DNA of 64,000 nt from Polytrichum commune (lineage: Eukaryota; Streptophyta; Polytrichopsida; Polytrichales; Polytrichaceae). Under the pieces are notes generated by a model. The model did no database searches and was not told where the DNA came from. It saw nothing but the letters and a program-made list of their open reading frames with translations. Positions 13,552 to 58,420 of this stretch are shown one piece after another; positions within the stretch are counted from its first letter, which is position 1, and each line of letters starts with the position of its first letter. The translations under genes and the position numbers were made by a program. Location of the stretch: the NCBI GenBank assembly GCA_950295325.1, contig OX485803.1, forward strand, positions 34,983,554 through 35,047,553. Direction: 5' to 3'.

Positions 13552-14010
13552 GGACCCTAAATAGTTCGCAAAAACCTTGAGTAGGCCTTCAAAGGCATTG
13601 GGAGAGTCATTTCCAAAGAAATTTAAAATTTAAAAAAATATTTGAATTTAACTTCAATGTAACCAAAATGTTGGAAAACACACTCTTAGCACCAAGAAGG
13701 TGTTATTCAAAATTTTGAGCATTTATTAGAAGTTGTGTGAAGACTTTGGGAGGTGGTGCAAACATTATTCCTTAAGAGTTTTGAAAAACTCAATAAAATT
13801 TGCAACCAAATTCAATATCTCCAAAATGCTAGAAAACACCCTCTTGGCGCCAAGAAGGTGTTTTTCAAAATTTTGAGCATTTTTTATAAGCCTTGAAAAG
13901 ACCTTGATAAGTGTTGGGAGCATCATTTCAAAAGAATTTTGAAAAACTTAGTAGAATTTGGAACTAACTTCAATGTGTCCAAAATGTTGCGAAATGCCCT
14001 CTTGTGTAAA
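13552..14010. repeat. Tandem repeat, 158-bp unit, about 2.9 copies
   Basis: CCAAAATGYTRG starts at 13663, 13821 and 13979, two exact steps of 158 bp. Each unit also carries AAATTTTGAGCATTT and GTTGGGAG..TCATTTC. The middle unit contains a 28-bp near-palindrome at 13835-13862 centred on CTTGGCGCCAAG. A related TGTTGGAAAACACC occurs at 13128, beside the hairpin cluster. Confidence 0.85.
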
Positions 14011-15885: not shown

Positions 15886-16063
15886 TTATTAGAGGCTCGT
15901 ACATGCAAACCATAATAAGCACATCAACATTTTTGAGGTTTAACCCCTAAGCCTCTGAGAGGCCCAAGTTGGGCTTCTCAATGCCCATATATCCAAGTCA
16001 GCTTTGATTGTTATAATCCACTTTCTTCATGTGCAGTGTATAGGGATATTTTTGAGCACAATA

Positions 16064-16217
16064 GGTCAAAATCCTAGTGTTTCCAAGTCCAACCGGTTGC
16101 TTGTTGTGATATTTGATGTTTTCTTTATTAATTTGAAGTATAGTCCGTATATTCCTCTAAATGATGGGTAATTTTGCCAAAGTCTCGAACTTCAACCGGT
16201 TCATCTATAACTAGCGC
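16064..16217 (+). repeat. Dispersed AACCGGTT repeat, single copy
   Basis: It contains GGTCAAAATCCTAGTG, TCCAAGTCCAACCGGTT, ATTCCTCTAAA and AACCGGTTCATCTATAACTA in that order. The same order is seen at 42425-42625 and 47703-47910, and in expanded form at 47985-48640. Confidence 0.75.
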
Positions 16218-28311: not shown

Positions 28312-28645
28312 CTGGGGGGTGGCAGTGTGTTAAAAAGCTAAGGATATAGGTGCGAACAACCACTATTTTATAGGGGGGTATTACTTTCAATTTTTTTTTT
28401 CACATGCTATCATTATGTAAATTTCTACTTTGGGTTAATAGAAAAATGGCTTGCATTACTTATAATTCCAAATTACTTATTATTCCATACCCTATAGTAC
28501 TTTAAAGATGTCCGTTTTCATTTTTGATACCCTATATTACTCTTAAGTCCATTTATAAAATTTTGCCCCCATGTTTTTAAAATACCCTATCATTTGTTCG
28601 CACGTATATTGCTACTCCAACCAATGACTACCCCCCTCCCCCGAG
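28312..28645. mobile_element. G/C-capped TIR element, copy 1, 8-bp duplication
   Basis: The element begins CTGGGGGGTGGCAGTG and ends CAATGACTACCCCCC followed by TCCCCCGAG. The inner arms share RTRCGTGCGAACAA and GGGTATT. A perfect 8-bp duplication, TAATTAGG, flanks it at 28304-28311 and 28646-28653, which suggests a hAT-type or, less likely, MULE-type mobiliser. Length 334 bp. It is nearly identical along its length to 29136-29489, which lies in direct orientation 824 bp away. Confidence 0.85.
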
Positions 28646-29135: not shown

Positions 29136-29489
29136 CTCGGGGGGGGGGGGGGGGGGCGGCAGTGTGTTAAAAAGTTAAGGATATAGGTGCGAACAACCAC
29201 TATTTTATAGGGGGGTATTACTTTCAATTCTCTTCTTTTTTTCACATGCTATCATTATGTAAATTTCTACTTTGGGTTAATAGAAAAATGACTTGCATTA
29301 CTTATAATTCCAAATTACCTATTATTCCATACCCTATAGTACTTTAAAGATGTCTAGTGTCATTTTTGATACCCTATATTACTCTTAAGTCCATTTATAA
29401 TTTTTAGCCCCCATGTTTTAAAAATACCCTATCATTTGTTCGCACGTATATTGCTACTCCAACCAATGACTACCCCCCCCCCCTCTGAG
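29136..29489. mobile_element. G/C-capped TIR element, copy 2, 8-bp duplication
   Basis: It begins CTC followed by an 18-base G run (29139-29156) and GGCAGTGTG, and ends in a C run followed by TCTGAG. The flanks ATTGTATC (29128-29135) and ATTGTAGC (29490-29497) match at seven of eight positions. Length 354 bp. Most of the size difference from copy 1 comes from the terminal G run. Confidence 0.8.
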
Positions 29490-30652: not shown

Positions 30653-30734
30653 GACCACCCTGATCTACAGTCGCTAAACGACTAAGATTTTTCTTTTTCT
30701 TTTTCCAGCAATAAAATTTAAACATTTTGGGGCG

Positions 30735-30787
30735 TGTAATATACCGTTGGAAAGGTATTTTGAAGACCTTTTCAACGGTATATTACA
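30735..30787. repeat. 22-bp-arm hairpin
   Basis: TGTAATATACCGTTGGAAAGGT and ACCTTTTCAACGGTATATTA, continuing CA, pair with one mismatch around a 9-nt loop. Confidence 0.85.
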
Positions 30788-31338
30788 AGACCCCAAATTC
30801 GAAACATTTTAGTTGGTAGACCAAAAAAAAAAATCTGCACTCAAATTCTTGATTTTTAGAAGTCCCATATTGTTTGATGAAACATGTGGGAGCAAGTTTA
30901 AGGGGTAGGGCATGGAAGAAGTAGTATGTCTCATGGGCTATGATATGATCTAGGCACATAGAGGGTGGACTTGCTTTTCAAGATTCTTTACATAATACAC
31001 ATGTTGAAAAGTGTGCCTTAGGAGTCTCCCCTAGTGGGAAGAGTTGTACATAAAGCCCCCCAAAAAATATCATTAAAAAAGTATTATAATGGCATCTCTC
31101 TGCCATAGCCCCTACCAAACCACCTCTTTTGCCTCACTCACCGCAAAACCCGTTGGACCATGTCAGTGCATTTACTAGGCTTTGAAAATTATATTTTGGG
31201 GACCTCGACCTCCATGGTCCCTCTGCCATTTTTTCCTAAGTGTAAACTGAAGGGGTCCCGGGACGAGTTTAGCAGCCAATCAACGCTCTTACTGTTCCCT
31301 AGTCTGACTTCATGGTCCATAGTGTAAACCGGCCGTAA

Positions 31339-42424: not shown

Positions 42425-42625
42425 GTATAGTTGGTCAAGATCCTAGTGATTCTAAATCCAACCGGTTACATGTTGACATCATCTTCCGGTTTTGCTTTTA
42501 TTCATTTGAGGAGGCATATTCTCCATAGATTCCTCTAAAACGATTGCTATTTCTCCTGAAGTCTCCAACTTCCAACCGGTTATTTCTCAAATTCAGCCGG
42601 TCCATCTATAACTAATTGCCGGTTC
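42425..42625 (+). repeat. Dispersed AACCGGTT repeat, copy beside the hairpin array
   Basis: It contains GGTCAAGATCCTAGTG, AAATCCAACCGGTTACATG, CATCTTCCGGTT, GATTCCTCTAAAA, TCCTGAAGTCTCCAACTTCC and CCGGTCCATCTATAACTA, in the same order as 16064-16217 and 47703-47910. The hairpin array starts about 15 bp downstream. Confidence 0.8.
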
Positions 42626-42639
42626 AACCTGGACATACA

Positions 42640-43290
42640 CTCAGACGATTTGGGCGAACGAACCCATACACTCAGTCGATTTGGGTGAACCAACTCATAC
42701 ACTTGTTTCTTGTTGAATGCCTAAACCCTTGCCTCCAAGGAACCAATGTACAGGTTGGTTCGCCCCAGCCGACTAGACCCAGTGAATCGTACAGAAATAC
42801 GCTTAGCTTAATGCCCAAATTAAAACAATACATCAAATACTCCACCCACCACTCGTTCCGGTTCCACACCCCGGTAGGCTGGGGCGAACCAACCTGTACA
42901 GTGGTTCCTTGGATGCAAGGGTTTAGGCATCCAACAAGGAACAAGTGTATGGGTTGGTTCGCTCAAATCCACCCCGATAAGCTGGGGCGAACCAACCCGT
43001 ACAATGATTTCTTGGAGGCAAGGGTTTAGGCATCCAACAAAAAATGAGTGTATGGGTTGGTTCACCCAAATCCACCCCGGTAGGCTGGGGCGAACCAACC
43101 CGTACAGTGGTTTCTTGAAGGCAAGGGCTTAAACATCCAAGATGGAACGAGTGTATGGGTTGGTTCGTCACCCAAATCCACCCCAGTAGACTGGGACGAA
43201 CCAACCCGTACAGTGGTTCCTTGGAGGCAAGGGTTTAGACATCTAACAGGAAACGCATGTATGGGTTGGTTTGTCGCCCAAATGCACCCC
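42640..43290. repeat. Tandem array of 103-bp units, each an inverted repeat
   Basis: CGAACCAACC recurs at about 42885, 42988, 43091 and 43197, steps of 103, 103 and 106 bp, with degenerate units before and after. Within each unit, arm GGGCGAACCAACCCRTACA mirrors TGTATGGGTTGGTTCGCCC, and an inner arm GGTTCCTTG mirrors CAAGGAACR. The middle holds GAGGCAAGGGTTTAGGCATC. Because each unit is both tandem and palindromic, both strands give long, similar repetitive frames; these are not genes. A lone relative lies at 55961-56047 and a collapsed one at 49041-49077. Confidence 0.88.
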
Positions 43291-44560
43291 GGTGCCGGTG
43301 GCCACGTTAGTACCCCTACCCCACATTTACACGCACTAGCGCGGGGACGGGGTTTAGCCCGATCCGCCCGCCGGGTGGGGGGGGATGGTCAAAGGTCTTC
43401 TACAGAGGGAGGGGGGGGGGGTCTCGCACACACACACACATGGCTTGATTGGGAGTACACATTATGAGGAGCGGGGGGGGGGGGAGATAATAAAGGGGGG
43501 CCAGGGGAAACAAAAGGGGAGGGGGGTGAGGTCAGCGGATCGCGGGGGTGTCAGGCCCAAGATTTGGAGGTACGAGGGGTGTTAGTGTGGCCATGTGCCC
43601 CAGGGCTCTCCCTTTTGTCGTCTCCCTGCCTGCCCTGCCTGCCTGCCTGCCTGAATTGTACCCTGCATTGCGTTGCATTGCGTTGCGTTGTGGGGCGTTG
43701 CGGAGTCATTTCAAGCCTCCCCGGCCAATTCCCCTTCTCTTCCTTCACTTAGACCTCCTACCTAGGCTCTGAACGAACCCACCCAAGCCCCCCCACCTGT
43801 GTTGTTGGCCCTGCCATTTGTTGTACGCTCTCCCCCCTCCCATGCCCTACTAGGGCTGGCCTAGCCCCACTCATGGCTGGCTGGCTGGCTGGCTGGCTAG
43901 CTAGCTCCAGGCAGAGAGAGAGAGAGAGGGAGAGGAAGGGAGAGAGAGAGAGAGATGGATGGATTCACCGCTAATTCCCCCGTTTAAAATCGTGCGCTGT
44001 GAAATGGTACACGTGGGTGAAATGCGGCGCTGGGTTGGTGAAACATAAAGTCACCGCCCCTTATTAAACTCGTACATGAATGACGCCCCCTCCCTCCCTC
44101 GCTTTTGGTTTGGTTTGGTTTTGTTTTGTTTTGTTTTCCCTCCCCACTTGTGTTCAGTATGGGATGATGTCTCAAGAGGCATAACCCCTCATGTGATACC
44201 ACGACTAAGTTGGGGTATACATTTGGGTAACGGGCTCGCATTCATGCCAGTACAATGTACGGGCGTCTGCTTTTCTTTTTTCTTTTCTTGAGTATGGGAC
44301 GTGATGAGGTATGGAAGCGAAGCGAAGAGAGGGGGGGGGGGGGGGGGGGAGGGTGCCAAAACGGCCGCTTTGGAGCGTCGAGCGTACCACGTTAGTATCG
44401 CCACGTTTCTCAAAGTCGTGAACGGTTCTTGTGTTCGTTTCGGGTCGGGGGTTGCGATGCGAGGAGGCGGTGTCATGTTTGCGTCGCGTGTGTGAAGGTT
44501 ACGAGCGTTCAAAGTGTTCTTGGTTGATGGTCTACGACCAACATGGGAGCTTGATGTTAC
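43291..44560. other. CpG-rich, poly-G and microsatellite-rich block
   Basis: This block stands out from its AT-rich surroundings by many CG dinucleotides, for example in 43330-43380, 43530-43560 and 44350-44510. It holds G runs at about 43409-43419, 43474-43482 and 44331-44349 (19 bases), plus GCCT, GCTGG and GA repeats at 43627-43653, 43874-43900 and 43913-43955. The frames in it are low-complexity and overlap on both strands, so I call no gene. It could be an unmethylated island or a young GC-rich insertion. Confidence 0.55.
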
Positions 44561-47702: not shown

Positions 47703-47910
47703 CTCTAATCGGTCGAGATCCTAGTGTTTCCAAGTCCAACCAGTTTTCCTACATGTTGACATCGTTCAGTTTTCCTTCATCAATTTGCGGCATATCCTCT
47801 CAATTCCTCATAAACTGATTGGTAGTTTTTCCTAAAGTCTGGAACTTGTGCTGGTGGTTTCATAACCTCCACCTGCTCATCTGTAAGTAGCGGCCAGTTC
47901 TCCCCATTCC
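47703..47910 (+). repeat. Dispersed AACCGGTT repeat, unexpanded copy
   Basis: It starts AATCGGTCGAGATCCTAGTG and contains CCAAGTCCAACCAGTTTTCC, GATTGGTAGTTTTTCC and CTCATCTGTAAGTAGCGGCC. It is followed by GCAGTGCCTGGGAAGATTATT, which also precedes the copy at 42425, and then by the expanded copy. Confidence 0.75.
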
Positions 47911-47984: not shown

Positions 47985-48640
47985 ATCGGTCGAGACCCGA
48001 GAGTGTAAATTCCCAAGCTCAACCGGCTACATCTTCCGGTTTTCCTTGATAAATTCGAGGTATACATCTTCCGGTTTAACTGATCGGTGATTATCCTGAA
48101 GTCTTCAGCTTCAACTGGCTACGTCTTCCGGTCGTCCTTGATAAATTCGAGGTATATTCTATAGATACCCTCTTTAACTGATCAGCGATCATACTGAAGT
48201 CTTCGGCTTCAACCAGCTACATCTTCCGTGGTTGTACTTGATAAATTTGAGGTGTATTCTATAGATACCCTCTTTTAACTGATCGGCGATTATCCTGAAT
48301 TCTTTGGCTTCGACCGGCTGCATCTTCCGGTTGTACTTGACAAATTCGAGGTGTATTCTATAGATACTTTCATTAATTGATCGGCGATTATCCTGAAGTC
48401 CTCGGCTTCAACCGGCTACGTCTTCCGGTTGTCCTTGATAACTTTGAGGTGTATTCTATAGGATACCTTCTTTAACTGATAAGCGATTTTCCTGAAGTCT
48501 TCGGCTTCGACCGGCCACATCTTCCGGTTGCCCTTGATAAATTTGAGGTATATTCTATAAATTCCTCTTTAACTGACGGGCGATTTTGCTGAAGTCACCG
48601 GCTGTTTTTCCCACTCCACCGGTTCATCATCTGGAGCCAG
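47985..48640 (+). repeat. Expanded copy: about six 99-bp units with paired CCGG arms
   Basis: ATCTTCC recurs at 48031, 48122, 48221, 48322, 48420 and 48519 (steps 91, 99, 101, 98, 99). Most units carry AACCGG, a 9-bp spacer close to CTACATCTT, and CCGGTTG, a 6-7-bp inverted repeat, followed by CTTGATAAATTYGAGGTRTA, TCTATAGATACC, TTAACTGATCGGCGAT and CCTGAAGTCTTCGGCTTC. The first and last parts match the ends of the single-copy relatives, so the array arose by internal expansion. Confidence 0.85.
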
Positions 48641-48823: not shown

Positions 48824-49040
48824 GGAGCCTGCCAACACCAGTTGCATTAAGTTTCGGCATTCTTGAGCCTCCAGTGAGTGGATTCCGTCGTCAAAGAACT
48901 TTTAACCCCTGCATAAAGACTTCTCAATCAGGCCTATAGAAGGAAACCCAATTGAAGCCGAGCTGTTGCTAGCAAAATGTTCTGAGCATTGTCTAGGAAG
49001 TTAAGAAACAAGTCAGGTTTGACACCACCTGTAATGAGAT

Positions 49041-49077
49041 CTGGGCAAACCAACCAGTGTACGGGTTGTTTCGCCCC
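49041..49077. repeat. Collapsed copy of the 103-bp hairpin unit
   Basis: CTGGGCAAACCAACC and GGGTTGTTTCGCCC face each other across only 7 nt (AGTGTAC), whereas the full unit has about 50 bp between the same arms. Confidence 0.7.
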
Positions 49078-49151
49078 AACCCTGTAATGACTGGTTAGGG
49101 TTTTCAAAAAACTGAATATATGATCAAACAAAGCTTGCAGATTTTCAACGA

Positions 49152-49715: not shown

Positions 49716-49841
49716 TGCTAGGAAAGGTGGGTCTACATGACACACCAATCTATCACGAAGTGTCTAGAATGACACCAATTGATGTCATTCTAGACACTTC
49801 ATGCTAGATTGGCGTGTCATGTAGACCCGCCTTTCCTACTA
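49716..49841. repeat. 126-bp near-perfect palindrome without a loop
   Basis: Two arms of about 63 bp meet at CCAATTG. Mirrored blocks include TAGGAAAGGTGGGTCTACAT/ATGTAGACCCGCCTTTCCTA and GAAGTGTCTAGAATGACA/TGTCATTCTAGACACTTC. Only a few mismatches separate the arms. Confidence 0.92.
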
Positions 49842-52024: not shown

Positions 52025-52309
52025 CAATCAACATTGCCACCCGGCCATGAGTTGGTGTGGGTTTGGGCCACACGATCGAGGCCTTTTTGGATCCGACGGA
52101 CGAGGTCGTCGGGAGTGAGGGAGAAAACGTGAGCTTTTTTGTTGGCTGTGGGTGTGGGAAAAGCTCAATATGCTATATATGTGACCCACCGACCTTCAGG
52201 GCCATGCCTTTGTGTATTGAAGGCTTGTCTTCTTGCTCCACTTGGGTGCACTGTCGCAAGCCGTTTCAACTACCGTATGGAGCTGTGGGATTTGGCAAAT
52301 CTCCAAAAG

Positions 52310-52770
52310 CCTCCCCTCGCAACAAAAGCTATCGAGTTCCACTACCACGCCAACTCTTCACAAAAACCCTAGTGGGAGGGACACCGTAGTTGCAGAGTTC
52401 GTGAACTTTTGTATGGTGATCGGTTGTGTTGATTGGGTTTGAAGAATCAATCCCGTAGTAATGTAGAGCCTCCCGATCGCAAAAAGGCTATCGAGTTTCA
52501 CTAGAACGCCAACTATTCACAAAACCCTAGTGTGAGGGACACCATAGTTGCAAAGTTCGTGAGCTTTCGTATGTAATCGTTTGTGTTGATTGGGTTTGGA
52601 CGATTAGTCCCTATATACTATAGAGCCTCCCAATTGCAAAAAGCTGTCGAGTTTCACTAGAACGCCAACTATTCACAAAACCCTAGTGAGAGGGGCGTTG
52701 TGGTTGCAAAGTTTGTGAACTTTCTATGTAATCGTTCATGTTAATTGGATCTGGATCATTAATCCCTAGG
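52310..52770 (+). repeat. Tandem repeat, about 157-bp unit, three copies
   Basis: TCGAGTTYCACTA occurs at about 52332, 52491 and 52647 (steps 159 and 156). Each unit continues CGCCAACTMTTCACAAAA, CCCTAGTG, GTTGCARAGTTYGTGA and TGTTGATTGGGTTTG. Confidence 0.88.
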
Positions 52771-55454: not shown

Positions 55455-55955
55455 TTCCCCCCTCTCTCTCTCCCTCCCCTTGAGACTCTAGTTGGGTGCA
55501 TGTGCGGTGTATTTAATCTCTCAACAAAACCTTCCATCTTTATACATAACCCCCTTGAGCTTCTTATAACATAACATAACATAATATAGTAACGGCCGAG
55601 GGAAACAACGGGAAGGGGAAGAAGCTAAGCTAAAGCTAGGCGTTGGGTGGGGGCCATCTTAGGTGGCCATTGGGAATGGATGCGTAGGTGGCACGGGAAA
55701 CAAGGTCCAGCTATGGAGTGGGACCCCAAGTATCCACATTAGATTGAGTTGGTGATGCTAATAACTCCGCCTCGTACATAACTTACAAAGCATGGCCTCC
55801 CTCCCTTCCCAACCAATTCATCGCCCGCTCCATGCCACCAAATCAAGCCTTGTTTGTTAAAGGCAAGACATCCGTGGTGGTGGTGGTGGTTTACTACGAA
55901 GGTAAAAATGGGGTCTTAAAATGGTTATTTTTCTCTATTTGCCCACTCTTTGTAG
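55455..55955. other. Mixed stretch with ATAAC and GGT repeats
   Basis: (CATAA)n lies at about 55568-55586 and (GGT)n at about 55874-55892. No gene recognised. Confidence 0.4.
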
Positions 55956-55960
55956 GGTTG

Positions 55961-56047
55961 GGGCAAACCAACCCATACACTGGTTCCTTGGAGGCAAGGG
56001 CATAGGCATATGTCCAACAAGGAACGAGTGTATGGGTTGGTTTGCCC
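55961..56047. repeat. Single copy of the hairpin unit of the 42.6-43.3 kb array
   Basis: GGGCAAACCAACCCATACAC, then GGTTCCTTG, mirrors CAAGGAACGAG, then TGTATGGGTTGGTTTGCCC. The middle carries GGAGGCAAGGG and TAGGCAT as in the array. Length 87 bp. Confidence 0.88.
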
Positions 56048-56189
56048 GAATCCTCCTCGTAGGACACGAAGAAAGCTTAATTGTACAAGATGGTGAGCAA
56101 ATCCAAATCGTCCCCTTAGGCACTCGACTTCGTCGTTTTTAGGGTTCATCTGAGCATCTTACTAGTCATCAAAGTGAAGGTTTTCGTGT

Positions 56190-56640: not shown

Positions 56641-56894
56641 TTGAACACATGTCTTTTAGGTATCCGTTCTTGGAGCCACACAAAACCATGTACCAACCAA
56701 ATAAAATACAAGTGTCCAGTTAAGATATGTAACTGAATTAGGCATGTGTGCCTTAATTAGCACCCACAACCCCTCCAACCTGTGCAAATTGGATTGCTTG
56801 TTCAAATTGGTGAGGTTTATTTAATGGGTTCAATACGGTTTTAAAGGGACTCACTCATCTGTATACCATTTTGTTTTACAGGAATTGAATGTAT

Positions 56895-57086
56895 ACCAAT
56901 TTGGGCAATGTTAGTTTCAAAATAAGTAGTTTATTATATTTTGCGGTGGGGGTAATTGTTCAAAAGTCTATTATGGGAAGTCACACGCACTGCCATCAAC
57001 CCTTCCCATAATACACTTTTGAACAATTACCCCCACCCCAAAATATAATGAACTGCTTATTTTAAACTAACATTGCCCAAATTGGT
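56895..57086. mobile_element. Foldback element with 86-bp arms
   Basis: The arms 56895-56980 and 57002-57086 are inverted copies (ACCAATTTGGGCAATGTTAG/CTAACATTGCCCAAATTGGT; GGGGGTAATTGTTCAAAAG/CTTTTGAACAATTACCCCC) with few mismatches and a 21-nt loop. This is the form of a foldback MITE or a very long hairpin. No target duplication was identified. Confidence 0.9.
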
Positions 57087-57089
57087 GAC

Positions 57090-58420
57090 CATGTAATTAA
57101 GCTAGAATATCTCCTAATGAATTTGGTGTGTGGTGTTCGGTGCCCATCAGTGTTCAATATTGAAGTCTCCAACACCTGTCAGATGTTGAGCATTTCATAA
57201 AAATGTCCTCTGCAAAGTTTCCACCAATCACAGTGAAGGCCTCTCCAAAAATCACATGTCACAAAATACAATGGTTGTAATTTACAAATACAAACATAGA
57301 TGGACTCCAATCTTGGCACTTTGGCAAACATTTCAAAATTCCAATAAGTCCTGCAATTACGACTCTAAAACTTCAACTCGGCACTGACTGCAACTTCGGC
57401 TTGGCAAGCACAACTATATGTGGACGTGGATTTTCCAAATAAAATTGGGTGAAGAGTGATTGTAGAAGTTGATTGAAACTTGAAACATTGAATGCATGAA
57501 TGCGAGTGTCATTATGCGGTCTTCTGATGGAAAATATGGATTGGACTAAAATTTTAAAACTTGGAAGTTGACCAAAAACCAAACGACTTTGCCTTTGGAA
57601 TTGGATGATGATTAAGTGCATTATATAGATAATCTAAATAATTCTAGTGCATCATCTTGTTGTAGGTACTTCTTCAATGTAGTGAGACATCATATTGAAT
57701 ATTTTCATATTCAATATAAAATGGCCAATATCAAATTTTCATTGGTGAAGTGGTGCAAAAAAGTTTGAAAGTTTGAGTGAAGTGTGATTATTTTGAAGCC
57801 CTTCACATTGAAATGCATGTGCACACTTCAAACTTTAACACTAGTGCCCATTGACGAGAGAGGACTCGACATGCAAGTTGATTAAAGTAGTTGGAAGGTG
57901 ATTTGTAGTCGGTATAGAATAAAGGGGGCTACGGCCATGATAAGCAATCCATTGCTTGCTTGTCACATGCGCCGAGAGTACGGTCAACCCACGCCACTTA
58001 GCTTAAGTGATGCATCCCGAATGCATTCCATTAGCTTTGGTTTTGTACGTATTCTACAATTGCACATTAGCCCTCAATAACATGACGTTGCTTGGTAATT
58101 TCAAGGCCCTCCATTTGAGATCTCCCCGTGATTGGAGATGGAGAAAGTCCAAGTCCAATTGTCCAAGCTTCTTGTAATGTTGAATATTGTCAGTCCCACA
58201 AAACGTTGTTATGAATCTGAATAATATTATGTCATTGTGGTAGAAATTAGATAAAGTAGGATTAGATTGGAAACATCCTTACAATGTAGGATAAGGAATT
58301 CTAGATGGAAGGTCAAAATGTGAGCCCCACCTTTTCATTTTTGTTTTTGTATTTTTAGTGCCACTAAGGTCATCTCAACCATGCTATTATTGGCAAATAG
58401 AGATAGTACAAGAAGCTTGA
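57090..58420. other. AT-rich stretch, no supported gene
   Basis: I recognise no gene, tandem repeat or element end in it. Confidence 0.35.

Follow-up and report, generated by a model that had tools for sequence, protein, structure and literature searches.

The row of hairpins at 42.9 kb is probably a non-autonomous foldback or MITE-type element with a target duplication of 8–11 bp, which was amplified in tandem in register with its flanking repeat; on the evidence of the sequence we consider this reading the likely one. The element would be a DNA transposon of about 95–100 bp, made up almost entirely of two inverted repeats of about 37 nt and a short loop. Its family is present at three places in the 64-kb window (the whole stretch of DNA that was analysed, 64,000 nt). 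The first-pass annotation had proposed a MITE-like hairpin that was later tandemly amplified, and this is kept as the best reading, with the reservations that the flanks of the isolated unit agree weakly (9/11) and that the inverted unit beside the array has no notable flanking repeat.

Layout and folding of the hairpin array

Tandem Repeats Finder reports 4.1 copies with a period of 103 bp at 42867–43293, and within this region four direct units of 103–106 bp each lie head to tail (42874–43291). The array thus consists of homologous units in tandem, as satellite DNA does, at a length that is very short for a satellite. The whole of 42640–43290 had been described as one uniform array, which holds for the four hairpin units of 42867–43293 only; the remaining part contains an inverted unit, a duplication with a period of 31 bp and a spacer. 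The features of this region are the following:

42634–42673, minus strand: incomplete duplicate, about 31 bp long, of the inverted unit's outer arm (Tandem Repeats Finder and nhmmer)
42671–42773, minus strand: inverted unit, a hairpin (covariance model, 115.7 bits)
42774–42866, no strand: spacer of 93 bp from the inverted unit to the direct array (nhmmer)
42867–42875, plus strand: left outer flanking repeat of the array, CACCCCGGT (9 bp, found at both outer edges)
42874–42976, plus strand: direct unit 1 (covariance model, 121.8 bits; folding z −9.0)
42977–43079, plus strand: direct unit 2 (covariance model, 120.6 bits; folding z −5.7)
43080–43185, plus strand: direct unit 3 (covariance model, 107.6 bits; alignment)
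43186–43291, plus strand: direct unit 4 (covariance model, 108 bits; alignment)
43285–43293, plus strand: right outer flanking repeat of the array, CACCCCGGT (copy of the left edge)

The nearest relative of the inverted unit is unit 1 (91/103 identical), and the two together form a 99-nt inverted repeat, 91% complementary. The duplicated end of the inverted unit is seen by Tandem Repeats Finder as 2.3 copies of a 31-bp period at 42634–42703, and by nhmmer as a minus-strand match at 42674–42643 (E 7.2e-5). The 93-bp spacer has no second match within the window at E up to 0.1. In the alignment, units 3 and 4 carry a 3-bp insertion at the identical place of their 3' arms, as stepwise duplication predicts. 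Moreover, repeats of the CACCCCGGT type outnumber the hairpins of the array by one, the excess to be expected if target duplications had slipped or recombined unequally.

Other tandem arrays are also present in the window. The segment directly preceding the hairpin array (42428–42625) is a weak relative, at about 70–75%, of a separate array at 48019–48603 with a period of 98, 6 copies and CCGGTT motifs; further weak relatives of the same array are located at 47706–47900 and 16060–16211. Two more arrays, at 52308–52768 and 13598–14004, have periods of 156 and 158, respectively, and show no mutual match of at least 40 nt in the all-against-all comparison.

The RNA folding z-scores of the four direct units are −9.0, −5.7, −5.7 and −5.2, each of them equalled by none of 200 shuffles. 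The isolated unit folds at −67.8 kcal/mol (z −11.6; 0 of 200 shuffles as good). Two copies fold less well, namely the inverted unit (z −2.9, equalled by 2 of 200 shuffles) and the loop-deleted copy (z −3.1, equalled by 1 of 200). A stem length of 14 had been given earlier, and the arms as measured are about 35–38 nt each. Inverted repeats are found at or near both ends, as in MITEs and foldback elements; in the isolated copy they are 37 nt long and 92% complementary. The ends of the element, judged by eye, are AGGGTTGGGGC / AGGATTCGGGC. Allowing up to 3 mismatches, the motif GGGCGAACCAACCC is present 18 times where 2.59 occurrences would be expected, a count that none of 100 shuffles attains; 15 of these 18 occurrences fall inside the copies of the element treated in this text.

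Further copies and their flanking repeats

Two relatives of the array units lie elsewhere in the window, and both had been recognized by the first-pass annotation:

49028–49037, plus strand: flanking direct repeat of the loop-deleted copy, CCTGTAATGA (10/10 with 49081–49090)
49043–49076, minus strand: loop-deleted hairpin copy, 34-bp core (nhmmer, covariance model and alignment)
49081–49090, plus strand: second flanking direct repeat of the loop-deleted copy, CCTGTAATGA (10/10 with 49028–49037)
55946–55956, plus strand: direct repeat on the left side of the isolated unit, CTCTTTGTAGG (9/11 with 56053–56063)
55961–56047, plus strand: isolated unit, hairpin core (covariance model, 111.4 bits over 55953–56059)
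56053–56063, plus strand: direct repeat on the right side of the isolated unit, CTCCTCGTAGG (9/11 with 55946–55956)

The lone unit is a genuine relative at the place given for it (55961–56047) by the covariance model, nhmmer and alignment alike, and it is homologous to the array units through the whole hairpin (77–84% over 103–106 positions). The loop-deleted form, which had been put at 49041–49077, is likewise a genuine relative, with its core at 49043–49076 on the minus strand. It is matched by nhmmer at 49082–49046 on the minus strand (E 3.7e-8) and by the covariance model over 49031–49084 on the minus strand (29.4 bits, E 2.5e-5), and it aligns with the isolated copy (left arm plus flank) over 43 bp at 83.7%.

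The covariance model was built from seven copies (six full units and the loop-deleted one), whose own matches are therefore there by construction. With filters off it gave 38 matches in the window, including 7 to the family and 7 to the opposite strand of those same hairpins. No further convincing copy was found in the 64-kb window, and a sequence-only nhmmer profile agrees. Six matches at 56931–57046, 49718–49840 and 30717–30806 were set aside as other palindromes, which suit any hairpin model; the 23-row nhmmer list contains none of them. The best of the six (E 2e-5, 29.8 bits) scores slightly above the loop-deleted copy. The other 18 matches have E 0.19 or worse.

Outside the window, a 15-base pattern was matched in 81 viral-contig stretches (one match each in the 80 listed), which we take as chance; BLAST of these stretches against unit 2 and the isolated unit gave a best E of 0.022 over 23 nt. 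A 25-base degenerate arm pattern was found neither in viral contigs nor in bacterial and archaeal genome contigs (0 matches each). These collections say nothing of the copy number in the source genome. Text matches to the stem sequences in two parvovirus papers were also taken as chance 13-mers.

The length of the flanking repeat varies across places. It is 10/10 at the loop-deleted copy (P 0.009), 9 bp at either end of the array (P 0.013) and 9/11 at the isolated unit (P 0.09, unconstrained), and the inverted unit shows nothing notable (P 0.23), each P being taken from 1500 random flank pairs in tests that were designed after the sequence had been seen. In the exact register of the loop-deleted copy, the flanks of the isolated unit agree at 2/10, and one base off that register at 8/10; random pairs reach 8 in 0.8% of cases as the best of seven shifts and in 0.4% as the best of three.

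When the flanks are compared as 10-mers, the agreement within one place is 10/10 (loop-deleted copy) and 8/10 (isolated copy), and between places it is 1–7 of 10. Framed in this way, over 10 bases, the left and right edges of the array agree at only 7/10, no better than the top value between places, and the five array 10-mers agree among themselves at 6–10 of 10. The flank sequence of the loop-deleted copy differs from that of the array (1–4 of 10 against the array 10-mers). The right flank of the isolated copy agrees at 7/10 with linkers 1 and 3, compared with 8/10 for its own left flank. AGG, or a variant of it, closes every flanking 10-mer except the last array edge, which means that the element itself may supply part of the flanking repeat.

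From these comparisons, the flanking repeats suggest target duplications, and with them insertion, at the loop-deleted copy and at the array. The first-pass annotation had made its proposal depend on isolated copies with insertion-like boundaries; the loop-deleted copy has such boundaries, and the isolated unit answers the point weakly, with 9/11 or, allowing for seven shifts, 8/10.

Eight further elements of the window, foldback or duplicated, served as a control: the flanking repeat was 9 bp in one of them, 6 bp in another and 5 bp in two, and the remaining four had none as long as 5 bp. An element of about 333 bp is present in two copies (28314–28641 and 29151–29483; 94% identical) whose ends are runs of G and C. 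A 9-bp direct repeat, GTAATTAGG, stands on both sides of the first copy, and the second has a flanking repeat of only 6 bp; the left junction of this element is AGGCTGGGG, as in the hairpin array. The palindrome at 49719–49838 has two 60-nt arms that are 92% complementary and no loop between them; its flanks (20 bp outside, 6 inside) hold no direct repeat of at least 5 bp. The foldback-like element at 56883–57098, of about 216 bp with arms 85–92% complementary, also has no direct repeat of at least 5 bp in the flanks inspected. A domain search of ten open frames up to E 0.1 gave two matches, Pol_BBD (Pol polyprotein, E 0.00036) and TraX (E 0.03), both under the curated cut-off. Together with the general look of the sequence, the first of these matches suggests that the DNA is from a plant.

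Order of events and alternative explanations

Among all copies the isolated one has the most symmetric hairpin, its arms being alike at 33/38, while the arms of the five array units (the inverted one counted) are alike at 25–28/38 within a unit. Between array units the 5' arms agree at 33–36/38, far above the match of a 5' arm with the 3' arm of its own unit. The clear signal for the order of events is in the 5' arm, and the 3' arms separate less cleanly: they agree at 27–34/39 between array units (units 3 and 4 at 34/42), and the 3' arm of unit 4 agrees at 27–28/39 with those of the inverted unit and units 1–2, against 25/38 with its own 5' arm. Since the 5' arms of the array units agree better mutually than with their own 3' arms, the duplication probably came after the hairpin's origin and followed its decay, and the array most likely grew from a single unit whose arms had already drifted apart. 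Identity is 82–88% inside the array and 77–84% between the array and the isolated unit. A possible alternative to decay in the array is that the arms of the isolated copy were evened out later.

Under the foldback explanation, copies would have inserted at three places in the window, each probably with a target duplication of 8–11 bp; flanking repeats are seen at two places and are weak at the third, and we infer that they originate from a transposase. At 42.9 kb, mutation would first have reduced the symmetry of the arms, and the copy would then have multiplied in place, in register with CACCCCGGT, presumably through replication slippage or unequal recombination between short repeats. The outcome would be four hairpins with shared copies of the repeat between them, one unit having also been duplicated in inverted orientation. 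Another copy would have lost its loop, and afterwards the units would have decayed as neutral sequence does. We propose no function for them beyond possible incidental small RNA.

The ends of the element and the repeat length (8–11) point to no single superfamily. Ends of the hAT type and of the Mutator type were tried by eye on the flanks, and neither suits all three places. hAT elements make a target duplication of 8 bp, and Mutator elements one of 9 bp (8–11). Repeats of 8–11 bp would fit either hAT elements or Mutator-like elements, the latter by the range given in an excerpt of PMC5907723.

The same copies might also represent a minor satellite or minisatellite with a palindromic monomer, in which case the isolated copy and the loop-deleted one would be leftovers of such arrays or escapes from them rather than insertions. 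All copies are confined to 42.6–56.1 kb of the 64-kb window, and because its right flank resembles an array linker (7/10), the isolated copy could be a stray monomer from the array. However, the flanks of the loop-deleted copy match each other completely and the array 10-mers at just 1–4 of 10, the isolated copy has the most symmetric arms, unlike a degraded monomer, and a near-perfect stem of 37 nt is what one would expect to see in a foldback element rather than in a random satellite, so that we regard a satellite origin as unlikely. Separate copies might instead have inserted repeatedly into a single preferred target, without any duplication, a course that has a precedent in the preferred-target arrays of unrelated elements described for guayule SaTar in part of PMC5907723. 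In the present array, however, the units share their arm asymmetry and their differences from the isolated copy, which would be unexpected unless they came from one decayed source; repeated independent insertion was rejected as the main explanation on these grounds and is hardly credible.

The strong folding of the hairpins would also be in keeping with clustered genes for microRNA or siRNA precursors, in which the hairpins are transcribed and diced and the array serves as a polycistronic precursor, and miRNA genes have been reported to derive from MITEs in rice (excerpt of PMC3237417). A permissive Rfam search gave 7 matches for the isolated unit (six miRNA models and one ribozyme model), the best being mir-3914 with E 8e-7, and 2 matches for the array, both miRNA models (E 0.1 and 0.25). 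However, no Rfam match was found in the window at gathering scores. The match to mir-3914 has 36 bits where 97 are asked, and the permissive miRNA matches as a whole have 19–36 bits where their families require 78–100. They fall on several unlike models, two of which match the isolated unit on both strands, as a near-palindrome would make them do, and we read them as what any near-perfect hairpin yields. Pairing in the array is kept no more than by chance: 9 unit-by-pair cells are off consensus, among which 5 keep a standard pair and 4 break it, against 4.1 ± 1.3 kept by chance (P 0.38; 60% transitions assumed, small sample). The covariation term of RNAalifold is about zero (0.03), with double change(s) in 5 of 37 pairs. 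With column limits set by the analyst, array units are 92% identical to one another in the 5' arm and 83% in the 3' arm, values not clearly above that of the loop (86%). In this small sample, stem changes, covariation and Rfam give no sign of a conserved RNA. The negative Rfam result, the weak permissive matches and the chance level of pairing led us to reject microRNA as the main explanation, and a small-RNA precursor cluster is very improbable. It would be slightly less probable still that the row is transcribed as a precursor with several hairpins, which arose when a foldback element was amplified in tandem and which yields a family of slightly different small RNAs.

Comparison with known systems

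Foldback 'Hairpin' elements of plants, and MITEs in general, comprise elements that are little more than long inverted repeats, as the present element is, a likeness by description. The first-pass annotation knew of no named family with this design, and on this point it is corrected by the CMITEs of corals, a case of full-size MITEs of about 100 bp in tandem arrays (excerpt of PMC2872659); the design of the array is not new. CMITE elements of Acropora are about 100 bp long and form tandem arrays of full-size elements, for which the authors suggest replication slippage. They share with the present element this size, the inverted termini, isolated copies with target duplications, full-size arrays and spacers that are alike, and they differ in being piggyBac-related, with TTAA duplications and inverted repeats of 13–14 bp (all from the same excerpt of PMC2872659). 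The arms of about 37 nt, which fill nearly all of the present element, and its flanking repeats of 8–11 bp set it apart from CMITEs by description.

Tetris of Drosophila virilis, in the part of PMC4079207 drawn on here, is also a foldback element with target duplications of 8–10 bp, and it gave rise to tandem repeats and the TIR-220 satellite. Its terminal inverted repeats, however, are up to 1,735 bp long, and its tandem unit is a part of the inverted repeat rather than the whole element. The SaTar elements of guayule, rice and sorghum, which are non-autonomous and Mutator-like, resemble the present element in occurring in plants, having inverted ends and being clustered; their target duplications are 8–11 bp (10 bp in most guayule families). 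They differ in their length of 233–1050 bp and in forming arrays of unrelated elements at microsatellites (excerpt of PMC5907723).

More generally, tandem repeats derived from MITEs and foldback elements have been reviewed, including MITE-derived satellites such as rye D1100 (excerpt of PMC9659126), and so have the mechanisms proposed for them (excerpt of PMC12628747). In the present family the single, the shortened and the multiplied form lie within a span of 14 kb. It would illustrate in a small space how a foldback element becomes a tandem repeat in register with its flanking repeats, and would be a small test case for the transposon origin of tandem repeats by a route already described in other organisms.
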